A model generated the notes under the pieces. The model was not told the DNA's origin. It saw only the letters and a list, made by a program, of their open reading frames with translations, and did not search any database. A stretch of DNA of 64,000 nt from Alphaproteobacteria bacterium (GTDB taxonomy: Bacteria > Pseudomonadota > Alphaproteobacteria > UBA9219 > RGZA01), in NCBI GenBank assembly GCA_033762625.1, contig JANRLI010000003.1, forward strand, positions 62,001 to 126,000, in the 5' to 3' direction. Each line of letters opens with the position of its first letter. Position 1 is the stretch's first letter. The position numbers were made by a program, and so were the translations under genes. Below are positions 28,048-53,296 of the stretch, piece after piece.

Positions 28048-28127
28048 TTGACTCATAGTCCGAATGCTTGTTAGTCTAGGAATTGGGTCACATTCCCCCA
28101 ACGGAATGCTTCTATTCTGGAAGGAAT
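28048..28127 (+). promoter_or_regulatory. serC promoter candidate and structured leader
   Basis: TTGACT (28048-28053) and TAGTCT (28072-28077) are spaced 18 bp and form a weak promoter candidate. Downstream, alternating GGAAT (28079, 28103, 28123) and ATTCC/ATTC (28092, 28114) elements allow mutually exclusive hairpins. The last GGAAT overlaps the serC ribosome site. A serC leader RNA motif has been described in alphaproteobacteria; I cannot confirm that this is the same structure. Confidence 0.4.
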
Positions 28128-28134
28128 AGCTACA

Positions 28135-49078: not shown

Positions 49079-49109
49079 AAAAAAAGCCGCCTGATAAAGG
49101 CGGCTTTTT
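49079..49109. terminator. Bidirectional terminator after ccoS
   Basis: A perfect 12-bp stem (AAAAAGCCGCCT with AGGCGGCTTTTT) and a 5-nt loop lie between the convergent ccoS and ATP-grasp genes. The stem core is nearly the same as that of the terminator at 32137-32170. Confidence 0.92.
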
Positions 49110-49126: not shown

Positions 49127-50086
49127 CTAAGCAGCTTTTAATTGCTCGGCGCTTTTGCGCAGTTCTGCTTCCAGATAATCCGCCAACTTTTCAATGGCAA
49201 AGATGCCCGCTTCTTTTTCAGCTTGTGGGTTATAGTTCGTGTTAGTGTTGATATCATAGACATAGGTTTTGCCAGAGGCATCACGAATGAATTCAACGCC
49301 TGCAACGCTGATAGAATTTTCAGCAAGGAATGTTTCAAGCTTTGCAACAATCGGGTCATTAAAATCCTTCTGGATTTCAAACAAATTGCCCGCAGATGTC
49401 GTCATGCAGACTTCGCCAGCGGGGGCAGGGGTGTCGATGCGGCATGCTTCGGCGGGGCATAATTCAAAGCCTTGGCTGGTATCCACCTTTACGGCGTATA
49501 CAAACTTGCTGCCAATGAATTCAAGGCGGTGGATGAATGGCTGCGGTGCTTTGATGTATTCTTGCAGCAACATGATGTCATCCATGGAGCTGGTATATTC
49601 AGGATGGTTTAAATAATCTTCCAAAACCTTGAGGGATTGAATGAGCTGGATGCCAATGCCCTTACCGCCACGGTTTGGTTTCAGGATGAATGGCGCTTTG
49701 AATGTTTTGGCTTTTTCCAGGATATCGGCCTTGCCAAAACATGCAACGGCGCGTGGCACATTAATGCCGGCTTTTTGCAGGCGTACATATTGGTCGGCCT
49801 TGCTGATTTCTAAACGTAATACGCTGGATGGATTGATAATGCGGGCGCCATTTACTTCAAGCCACGTTAAAATCGCCGCAGAATAATCCGGAGCATTAGG
49901 ATGATTGCGGGTATAGGAAGATGCGCTGGTTTTGTTGAAATACACACCGGGCGCTGGGGGCTGCGTTAAATCAATGCTGCCGCCATCAAGAAAAATGCTG
50001 GCATGCTTTATGCCGCGCTCATCCAGAACTTTACGGATGGGTGCAAACCATTGTTCGTTTTCGTGTAAAACATAAACTGTGCTCAT
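49127..50086 (-). CDS. ATP-grasp ligase, RimK/glutathione-synthetase-like
   Basis: A 319-residue ATP-grasp enzyme of uncertain substrate. The N-terminal preATP-grasp region begins STVYVLHENEQWFAPIRKVL. The nucleotide-binding Lys and Gly loop are in FILKPNRGGKGIGIQLIQSL (about 132-151). The Mg-binding Asp/Asn block is VYDINTNTNYNPQAEKEAG near the C-terminus. The fold joins a carboxylate to an amine or thiol through an acyl-phosphate. The ATG has a strong ribosome site (AAGGAGAG). It lies 25 bp downstream of the 900-residue protein gene on the same strand, so the two are probably an operon; together they may make and handle one product. Confidence 0.85.
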   Translation of the reverse strand: MSTVYVLHENEQWFAPIRKVLDERGIKHASIFLDGGSIDLTQPPAPGVYFNKTSASSYTRNHPNAPDYSAAILTWLEVNGARIINPSSVLRLEISKADQYVRLQKAGINVPRAVACFGKADILEKAKTFKAPFILKPNRGGKGIGIQLIQSLKVLEDYLNHPEYTSSMDDIMLLQEYIKAPQPFIHRLEFIGSKFVYAVKVDTSQGFELCPAEACRIDTPAPAGEVCMTTSAGNLFEIQKDFNDPIVAKLETFLAENSISVAGVEFIRDASGKTYVYDINTNTNYNPQAEKEAGIFAIEKLADYLEAELRKSAEQLKAA

Positions 50087-50111
50087 ATGCGCTCTCCTTA
50101 TATGGGTATAA

Positions 50112-52814
50112 CTATACTGTTAAACGCGGCGCTGCAACACCGCTGCGATTTTGTGCTGTTAATTGAGGTTTGCTGAGCGCTTCCGCACGCAACGCCGAAA
50201 TAATACCTTGGACATGGTTGATCTGCTCCACAATCAACTTAATGTGCTCAGGATGGAATTCAACAGTCTTGCGTAGGCCACGGCGCGGCGCATCTTCCGA
50301 TGTCATCGCATGTTTGATGCCGGCATAGTGTTCACCGGTCACCAATGGATGGTCCGCAAGATCAAAATTGCGCTGCGCATTCGCCGTTACAGGGCGATGA
50401 GTGCTTTTTGCGAGCTTTAATCCATCTTCATGTGAATAGGCGTATGGTGATTGGCTTTCTTCCCAGTTTGGAACTTCAAATACTTTGCCGCGTTCAGCAA
50501 TGGCAGATAACGCATTTGATGCGCGGGTCAACTGACCTTTCGCTTCAAGGCGTTCAGATGCGCCAACCGAAAGCGTATCGCGATCGCCGATTTGATATTG
50601 AATGCCTTCCATATATAAAGACAGCTCTTCGGCATTACGGACATCACCTAATGCTCTAAGGATATGCACACCATTCTTCAGATTAAGTACAGCAGCCTGT
50701 AATTGTGCGGAGACATTATATAATGGGCCGTATTTATCCGTTTTTTCAGCCAGCGCAGCTTTTGCATCCGCGCGACGTTCGCCATAGATTTCAACGATTT
50801 TACGCTTCACTGCGTCTTGCTCAAATGGCAGGCCTTTAAATTCGCTTTGATCCCACCATGCCTTATAAGCTGCGGCATCACCTTTGCTGAATGCATCATT
50901 ACTTGGGCTACCGCCTTCGAATACGATGCTATTGGAATCCCGTACAAAGCTTTGTCCAATATTCATCGCGCCATTGGCGACAACGCCGCGGATAACGCCT
51001 TCATCGGATAGCAATGTCTTTTCGGCAAAGGTGGATCCTTCAACTTCTGCGCCGTGAAGATGGCTATCTTTAATGATGATTGGCGCAACGCGGCCATCAA
51101 TTAAAGCGGGATGACGTTCTTTGGTAGCGGTATGACCAATCACGTTATCCAAAATGACATGACCATAGGCAGTAAACGGCGCAGCCGATTGTTCGGAAGC
51201 CAAGCTGCCGTTAATAACGGTTACATCAAAACCGATATGCACCGCCCCGCTGAGGTCAACATTGCCAACCAATGTTGCACCGTCATAAACCACGGGAACG
51301 TGCCCAGCAAAGCTGCGTACTTTCGGGCCATCAGCCAAGGTTACAAAGTTTGTACGTTTGGGGTTAAGTACCTGGATCCATGATGGAACTTCACGCTCGC
51401 TAAGGATGCGGTTTGGATCTTCCTTCACCTTAATCACTTTCGCAGCTTCTGGAACATGCTGATAAAGTGCTGCGAATTGACCAAGGCGTTCGCTTAACAG
51501 TGCACGTTCTTGTGCAGTCGCTACAAACGAAACGGAGTCAGCAATATTTACTGGCTTTAATGCCTGATCGATAATGGCGTTGCGATGCACAATGAGATTT
51601 ACATCGTGGGTGATTGTGTTTAACGCGCTTTGTGTATCTGCAATAATGGCGTTGGCATTCAAAAAGGCGTTATTCAATGCCGCATCTTCATTCGCTTTAG
51701 GTTCATAGGCGCCAAGCAAAAACAGCTTTGCTTTAATCAGATTTTGTAAATCTTGCGTATCGTGATTACCGGTTGCAACCAGAATGCGATGTGCGCGGTC
51801 AAGGTGCAGAATTTCGGACTGCAACGGCGCATTATGCCAAACAATATCGCCGAATTGTTTTGCAGCTTCCTGCTGATATGAAACTTGTTTGAGGTGTTGG
51901 GTCTGGTGATAAAACCATAGCCAGTTGGAAAGGGTGGGGCTGTGGAACAGGCTGCGGTTTTGATCCTTGATCCACTGTTTGGCGCCAATTTCAATTAAGG
52001 TGGTGACATCTTGATTGCTGAATGGCGGTAAATGACGCGGGCGGGAGCCAAGACGCCACACACGCTTCAATGTTGTGACCAATGTATCTTTGATGGCTTC
52101 GTATTCCTCGCTGCCTTTATCAAGCGTTGCAAGTTTTGCAGTCTGCGCGTCAATTACATCAAGCTGTTCATCACTTAATGTAATCGGGCGGAACACGATA
52201 TCTTTCGAGCCATTTTTTCCGGCAGTTCCTGCGTAATACGCATCCCAGCCTTGAAGCGGTTCTAATGTTGTTTGGTCAAGCAGAACAGTAGGAAAAATCT
52301 TTACCGGATTGCCGATGTAATAATTATTGGCATGAATTTCCGCGCCCTTTGGCACGTTTACGCCAGGGCCGATATACGCGCCGGGTTGAACAGTGATGCG
52401 CGCATCGGGTGTGCCATTTAAAATCGGTTCAATATTAGCAAACGACCATGCGCCCCATGTCGCATATTTGGAAATGCCGCCATGTGCAAAGCCTGCGCCT
52501 TCTTCCAAAACGCTACCTTCAATTTCGCAATAATCCATAACCATGGATTTGCTTTTCAAAATGCTGGGATGTTGCGCGGTACCGCTTACAAAAGATTTGC
52601 GGCGGATTGTTACATCTTCGGCAATTTGAACATTGCCTTCAAATCGAATTTCGCGTGAAAGCAACTTGCTTAAAATAAAAGGAATATGACCGTCTTTGGC
52701 AATCACCAAAGTACCGGGAGCCTCTTTGAATACAGAGCTTGCTGCGCCATGCGACCATACGCCGTGTAGGTTCGATGGGTTGAATGATTTTTTTAAGTTG
52801 TTTAGTACACTCAT
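50112..52814 (-). CDS. Large uncharacterised protein with beta-helix-like segments, 900 aa
   Basis: I do not recognise this protein. It is soluble with no signal peptide. Residues about 55-120 and 135-175 look like left-handed beta-helix (hexapeptide) repeats, for example ITVQPGAYIGPGVNVPKGAE. A helical region covers about 190-480. A second beta-repeat region lies at about 490-640 (VVYDGATLVGNVDLSGAVHI). A helical C-terminal third follows, ending SGVAAPRLTV. The alternating pattern suggests an acyl- or nucleotidyl-transferase-like scaffold. The ATG at 52812-52814 has GTGGAAG upstream. It leads the two-gene unit with the ATP-grasp ligase. Confidence 0.75.
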   Translation of the reverse strand: MSVLNNLKKSFNPSNLHGVWSHGAASSVFKEAPGTLVIAKDGHIPFILSKLLSREIRFEGNVQIAEDVTIRRKSFVSGTAQHPSILKSKSMVMDYCEIEGSVLEEGAGFAHGGISKYATWGAWSFANIEPILNGTPDARITVQPGAYIGPGVNVPKGAEIHANNYYIGNPVKIFPTVLLDQTTLEPLQGWDAYYAGTAGKNGSKDIVFRPITLSDEQLDVIDAQTAKLATLDKGSEEYEAIKDTLVTTLKRVWRLGSRPRHLPPFSNQDVTTLIEIGAKQWIKDQNRSLFHSPTLSNWLWFYHQTQHLKQVSYQQEAAKQFGDIVWHNAPLQSEILHLDRAHRILVATGNHDTQDLQNLIKAKLFLLGAYEPKANEDAALNNAFLNANAIIADTQSALNTITHDVNLIVHRNAIIDQALKPVNIADSVSFVATAQERALLSERLGQFAALYQHVPEAAKVIKVKEDPNRILSEREVPSWIQVLNPKRTNFVTLADGPKVRSFAGHVPVVYDGATLVGNVDLSGAVHIGFDVTVINGSLASEQSAAPFTAYGHVILDNVIGHTATKERHPALIDGRVAPIIIKDSHLHGAEVEGSTFAEKTLLSDEGVIRGVVANGAMNIGQSFVRDSNSIVFEGGSPSNDAFSKGDAAAYKAWWDQSEFKGLPFEQDAVKRKIVEIYGERRADAKAALAEKTDKYGPLYNVSAQLQAAVLNLKNGVHILRALGDVRNAEELSLYMEGIQYQIGDRDTLSVGASERLEAKGQLTRASNALSAIAERGKVFEVPNWEESQSPYAYSHEDGLKLAKSTHRPVTANAQRNFDLADHPLVTGEHYAGIKHAMTSEDAPRRGLRKTVEFHPEHIKLIVEQINHVQGIISALRAEALSKPQLTAQNRSGVAAPRLTV

Positions 52815-52919
52815 AACGCTTCCACAAAAAATTAAAATTATGTTTGATGCACAAACATAACATCACCATGCAGCGCAACTTGGCGCATTAAATGGATGTG
52901 GGGTTATCTAAAGGAAAAG

Positions 52920-53087
52920 ATGACGCCCATGCTGTACATCACATCTCACAAACAACATGGGCAAATGAAACCCTTTGGGCGAATGAAACCCAGAATGTTA
53001 TTTGGAGGGACTACAGCTGAGCTTGAAAAGGCGTTTCACAAACTGCATTTTCAAATAAGAGGGTTCACAAAATCCCTCCAGCTATAG
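52920..53087 (+). CDS. Possible small protein, 55 aa
   Basis: A frame from the ATG at 52920 with a good ribosome site (AAAGGAAAAG) 1-10 bp upstream, reading MTPMLYITSHKQHGQMKPFG and on to IRGFTKSLQL. It contains an internal repeat GQMKP/GRMKP produced by an 18-bp tandem DNA repeat. It has no similarity that I recognise. The gap 52815-53343 holds no other plausible gene, and this one may be chance. Confidence 0.3.
   Translation: MTPMLYITSHKQHGQMKPFGRMKPRMLFGGTTAELEKAFHKLHFQIRGFTKSLQL
52959..52991. repeat. Tandem 18-bp direct repeat
   Basis: GGGCAAATGAAACCC (52959-52973) and GGGCGAATGAAACCC (52977-52991) differ at one base and repeat with an 18-bp period. A further GGAGGGA/TCCCTCC inverted pair lies around 53003 and 53073. 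Their role is unknown. Confidence 0.65.
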
Positions 53088-53296
53088 CGCTTTAGCACTT
53101 GATAACGCGGTTGCAAGCAAGCCCTCAAATCCCGCGATACTGTTTCAAAGTATGGGATGAATTTAAGGTTGAAAGCATTGATTGTCAACTAGATTAATAG
53201 GGATTAACGCGCCAAAAGCATAGTAATTATTACATCTAAACGCCTGGATATTAAGACATTTCATAAATCGTAATAAAAAAGTCGCCCCGCCTTCCT

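Follow-up and report, generated by a model that had tools for sequence, protein, structure and literature searches.

The SAM-II (SAM_alpha) regulon of the Alphaproteobacteria includes metA, metX and metY/metZ, and the targets named in the text of a comparative survey of it are metY, metA, metXW, metXC and hom (PMC4239095). The terms "ATP-grasp" and "glutamate ligase" are absent from the main text of that survey, and an ATP-grasp ligase is not among the targets that its text names (PMC4239095). The locus analysed here does have such a ligase, together with a leader that matches the SAM-II regulon in its aptamer core and in its position just after a promoter, and the bacterial order to which the locus belongs uses the same element for met and cys genes. 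The described enzymes closest to the ligase are RimK, LysX and ArgX, which share with it a fold over the full length at 14-20% identity as well as the ATP-grasp core residues, but from which its family differs by scores under the curated cut-offs and by motifs of its own. The second protein of the locus shows a weak likeness to the left-handed beta-helix (LbH, hexapeptide) acyltransferases and the gamma carbonic anhydrases in two separate stretches, and differs from LbH enzymes in its length of 900 residues and its long other segments.

The locus lies in a stretch of 64,000 nucleotides (the window) that is part of a 2.23-Mb alphaproteobacterial assembly, and comprises the following features.

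53160 to 53188, minus strand: sigma70-type promoter (TTGACA at 53188-53183, a 17-nt spacer, TAAATT at 53165-53160), read from the sequence
53082 to 53141, minus strand: SAM-II riboswitch aptamer, matched by Rfam RF01726 and RF00521, both below the gathering score
52972 to 53142, minus strand: SAM-II aptamer plus conserved 3' stem in its order-wide form (model R1), with compensatory pair changes
52880 to 52990, minus strand: extra leader stretch kept at this unit only, with two GGGTTTCATTYGCCC-like hairpins in tandem, from alignment with a second genome
50112 to 52814, minus strand: gene for the 900-aa large protein, an ORF with one homologue found (58% identity)
49127 to 50086, minus strand: gene for a 319-aa ATP-grasp carboxylate-amine ligase (RimK/LysX-like), from Pfam and the AF2 fold
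49079 to 49104, minus strand: intrinsic terminator GCCGCC-TTTATCA-GGCGGC-TTTTTTT at the end of the unit, read from the sequence

We consider it probable that the two genes belong to the methionine/SAM regulon as a single operon, in which the ligase serves sulfur metabolism and the large protein acts in the same starvation step. A two-gene unit had been proposed in a first-pass annotation of the window, and both ORFs are found there as described, separated by a 25-bp gap in which AAGGAG precedes the ATG of the ligase gene; a strong ribosome site was also pointed out in that annotation. Because the pair is kept in a second genome, both ORFs can be regarded as genuine genes. Upstream, the unit borders on a PBP1C-type gene, and downstream on a gene for a copper-type P-ATPase that runs convergently; in the second genome a hairpin and a T-run are likewise present 3' of the ligase gene.

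Within the genus, the window genome (G000) and this second genome (G002) carry both genes in the same order behind a common leader, with different flanks, and both genes are absent from the third genome, G001. Beyond these two genomes of one genus the large protein was found neither in 385 genomes of the class nor in any of the 33 order genomes examined. It was also not found in wider genome contigs, phages, plasmids or viral contigs, where the wider genome-contig and viral scans used short patterns that distant relatives would escape; a viral, phage or plasmid origin was set aside, there being no match in those sequences. The large gene was never seen without the ligase gene (two of two genomes), so that the refuting conditions set in the first-pass annotation do not strictly apply, but the reverse does not hold, since in most of its occurrences the ligase lacks the large gene and its family is represented, in this unaccompanied form, in 20 of 289 class genomes (~7%). 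The two are therefore not a general pair, and the large protein is a genus-restricted partner of a more widely distributed ligase. Such a distribution might also mean that the genes are functionally unrelated and have only a starvation-regulated transcript in common, a view favored by the fact that in every other lineage the ligase has no such companion, and by the far faster change of the large protein described below. We think it unlikely nonetheless, given that two genomes of the genus have the pair in an unchanged order behind a shared conserved leader despite their different flanks, and that the third has neither gene.

In the leader, the promoter is followed at once by the SAM-II element. 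The -35 hexamer and its flanks are identical in the second genome, where the -10 hexamer is TACATT. The aptamer of the window scores 32.0 bits against RF01726 (E 3.8e-4 across all Rfam families; gathering score 44) and 24.2 bits against RF00521 (E 0.003; gathering score 36), and contains the SAM-II hallmark blocks GAUUUGA, UUGCAACC and GCUAAAGC. Further sites in the genus, that of the cys operon among them, have aptamers 89-98% identical to it; in the window genome itself, near-identical aptamers precede cysG-cysH-cysJ-cysI (assigned by Pfam) and a gene for a 183-aa protein (u183), and a more divergent SAM-II aptamer on the opposite strand precedes metX. Sites of model R1, which was built from six copies of the element, occur in 22 of these 33 order genomes, and several of them precede metA-, metF- and metE-type genes, names that derive from protein N-termini and that Pfam confirmed for MetA at the G006 site. 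The pairing of the aptamer and the 3' stem is accompanied by many two-sided changes, with 17 pairs as opposed to 4-8 in slid controls and 88% of cells paired as opposed to 24-50%, in an alignment that was fitted to the model and so favors it. A new riboswitch class was considered for the conserved 3' stem and is not needed, since SAM-II elements elsewhere also show a 3' hairpin after GCUAAAGC. From these sequence comparisons we identify the leader element, with good confidence, as a SAM-II riboswitch. In the alignment, the two unit-bearing genomes share 95% identity across the leader core (53136-52987), whereas the DNA of the large gene is 65% identical (local range 51-80%; third codon positions 48%). 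Conservation extends past the riboswitch through positions 52880-52990; at the remaining SAM-II sites of this genus there is a single GGTTTCAT..GCC hairpin.

A transcript that starts at the sigma70 promoter would thus enter the riboswitch immediately. By analogy with SAM-II elements elsewhere, plentiful SAM would turn the operon off and low SAM, arising from a shortage of methionine or sulfur, would turn it on. The products would then be a ligase whose family appears, in many bacteria, to be part of sulfur amino acid metabolism, and a large sulfur-sparing protein with hexapeptide-type beta-helix regions, which most likely acts in the same step, either as an acyltransferase-like enzyme or as the scaffold of the ligase. 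The sub-cut-off score of the aptamer, the many ligase loci with no sulfur gene or riboswitch close by and the features missing from the second genome count against this reading. The last point concerns G002, a 100%-complete genome in which, unlike G000 and G001, there is no match to MetX and no SAM-II site at a cys operon. It may be that G002 has lost de novo methionine synthesis and yet has kept the unit, and the missing metX and cys-operon site indicate that the unit is not linked to that pathway there.

That the second gene encodes an ATP-grasp ligase, as annotated initially, is borne out by its match to Pfam RimK (25.1 bits; cut-off 21) and by an AF2 model of good quality (pLDDT 85) whose nearest folds are LysX, ArgX and RimK, with Z scores of 24-27 (up to 26.9, for LysX/ArgX). 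Membership in the ATP-grasp superfamily does not extend to any of the named NCBIfam families, for all of which the ligase remains far under the curated cut-off: it scores 67.8 bits against the RimK alpha-L-glutamate ligase family TIGR00768 (cut-off 143.4) and 54.4 bits against the LysX/ArgX equivalog TIGR02144 (cut-off 275.6). No small LysW-like gene was seen adjoining the ligase gene. The motifs conserved in its own family are HENxxW, an SxSxxxR block (NRMSASSHTR in most members), LCPA(D/E)xC and YDxNxxTNYN. The fold and these motifs make it most likely that the enzyme joins an amino acid or a similar carboxylate to an amine; for the sugar-linked products that the first-pass annotation had also mentioned, no evidence was found.

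Relatives of the ligase also occur in some other Pseudomonadota, on Pediococcus plasmids and on one Spirosoma plasmid, and have no fixed partner gene. The closest homologue found outside the genus (L012/L029; 51% identity) has no large gene upstream and starts ~70 nt after a SAM_alpha riboswitch that scores 47.9 bits (cut-off 36). Sub-cut-off SAM_alpha matches precede two further ligase genes, one of 28.8 bits ~560 nt upstream, with a possible small gene between (L022), and one of 25.5 bits ~125 nt upstream (L025); the hallmark blocks are visible in the sequence of both. All of these elements are on the sense strand, in three families other than that of the window genome, and 69 kb of ligase loci gave no SAM_alpha match besides these three (E up to 0.5). 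The chance of finding three of three elements on the sense strand and <=600 nt upstream can be put, roughly, at (18 x 600 / 138,500)^3, or ~5e-4. Genes of sulfur metabolism are also found nearby: sulfite reductase adjoins the ligase at L031 and L043, with a SAM_alpha-MetZ a few kb away; a MetZ-type PLP enzyme and OsmC are near it at L034 and L035; it lies between a second Cys/Met PLP enzyme and lipB-lipA at L090-L093; and a TauE-type exporter is near it at L089, a tally of neighbours that was taken at ligase loci alone. The ligase loci of L045, Pediococcus and Spirosoma have amino acid or dicarboxylate transporter neighbours; no T-box or SAM element was found at gathering scores at those of Pediococcus and Spirosoma, and many ligase loci have neither a sulfur gene nor a riboswitch nearby.

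The SAM-II elements upstream in three other families, together with the sulfur-gene neighbours, place the ligase in the methionine/sulfur regulon. So far as we have found, no paper describes it as a member of that regulon, and within an incomplete coverage of the literature no papers link ATP-grasp enzymes with SAM-II or SAM riboswitches. A low-SAM or low-sulfur context for this widespread ATP-grasp family would mean that its reaction can be searched for among the intermediates of methionine and cysteine metabolism.

Proteins made under sulfur shortage are expected to have a low sulfur content. With 0.67% Met+Cys, the large protein is the lowest of 148 proteins sampled from the genome (median 3.3%; binomial P ~3e-8), and its 898-residue counterpart in the second genome contains 6 Met and lacks Cys. 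The second lowest of the 148 is CysG, which is itself SAM-II-controlled. Third lowest, at 1.11%, is a 632-aa FAD/NAD(P)-binding-like protein (L085:272-2170) encoded upstream of a third SAM-II site, and this protein may belong to the same regulon. The first-pass annotation had spoken of a biosynthetic or storage system, a guess made from the ligase alone; the riboswitch, the sulfur neighbours and this composition point more specifically to a methionine/sulfur starvation response.

The large protein also changes unusually fast. It is 58% identical between the two species, for which clear orthologues are mostly 90-98% identical and the ligase 96.8%; an unusual conservation of the ligase was considered and dropped, since its identity falls within the common range and the large protein is the outlier. 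Its dN of 0.33 is about tenfold higher than the 0.013-0.12 of other clear orthologue pairs; a further, doubtful pair (window 39941) has 0.28. Its dS is only 1.4 (0.6-1.1 in the other pairs), and with so large a difference in dN a recent allele swap of the gene is not favored. Such rapid change fits a scaffold or structural protein better than an enzyme. One might go further and see in the large protein a sulfur-free structural or storage protein for times of sulfur shortage, with which the ligase is merely co-regulated; its extreme composition, its rate of change and the lack of homologues found beyond the genus would all suit such a role. We regard this as rather unlikely, in that CysG, an enzyme of the regulon, is nearly as poor in sulfur, so that composition speaks to the timing of a protein's synthesis and not to its function, and in that a specific site is suggested by blocks of 88-92% identity between the two copies (residues 301-337 and 145-169). 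These islands and a C-terminal tail, QLTAQNRxGVAAPxLT, that is 82% conserved as compared to 57% overall, indicate that the large protein still has specific work to do. It offers a clean test case for the recruitment of new sulfur-sparing proteins by starvation regulons.

As had been noted at the outset, the plan of the large protein is not a recognized one: it matches no described family and nothing above any curated cut-off. The two beta-repeat regions proposed for it are plausible, in view of weak but consistent LbH matches of residues ~42-181 to hexapeptide acyltransferases (VioB, E 0.002; 3vnp, E 0.0097) and of residues ~505-652 to gamma carbonic anhydrases (E 0.04-0.1), with tests for a period of six giving borderline results. 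A GlmU-type hexapeptide match has an E value of 0.007, and one conserved block reads GAYIGPGVxVPKGAExHANNYYxGN. Structure prediction, which served the ligase well, gave for the large protein a model from two sequences with a pLDDT of 32, and the two helical regions proposed earlier do appear in this model, which is too poor to be trusted. The helical halves are weakly alike (0/300 and 3/300 shuffles; hhalign E 0.013, probability 3.5%), and the protein may be a duplicated unit of beta-helix plus helices, a suggestive reading at most. The LbH-type matches to acyltransferases, in a genus without MetA, might be taken to mean that the large protein is an O-acyltransferase that replaces an absent homoserine or serine acyltransferase. 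We consider this highly improbable: MetX is present in G000 and G001 and would supply O-acylhomoserine, which weakens the idea of a substitute for the missing MetA, and G001 lacks the large protein altogether.

A different partnership would make the 900-aa protein itself the substrate of the ligase: an amino acid would be added to its C-terminus, much as LysX and ArgX act on LysW and RimK on ribosomal protein S6, and the large protein would be a carrier or tagged scaffold. The nearest folds of the ligase and the conserved tail of the large protein speak for such a modification; yet the ligase family is widespread in genomes that lack the large protein, which implies another ancestral substrate, the likeness to RimK and LysX is one of fold only, and carriers of the LysW type are small and acidic. 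It is thus a distinctly improbable proposal, and we give no better prospects to its evolutionary form, in which a SAM-controlled ligase family of sulfur amino acid metabolism, for which we found no earlier description, gained a giant sulfur-free carrier or assembly platform in one genus and attaches amino acids to this scaffold. If true, a starvation pathway would run on a dedicated scaffold protein.

Further RNA elements were seen in the course of the analysis. A second SAM-II-controlled unit (L085:2309-3265 in G000, L086:1271-2211 in G002) consists of a short, poorly conserved ORF of ~65-70 codons followed by the gene for the 183-aa protein, which has no Pfam match, contains no Cys and is 90% identical between the two species. 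At L067/L107 (G008), a SAM-II element lies just before a succinylglutamate desuccinylase/aspartoacylase-type peptidase-like gene, an unusual target. Within the window, positions 28081-28134 match the serC leader RNA RF00517 at 45.9 bits, above the cut-off, and the 404-aa gene that directly follows should be serC.
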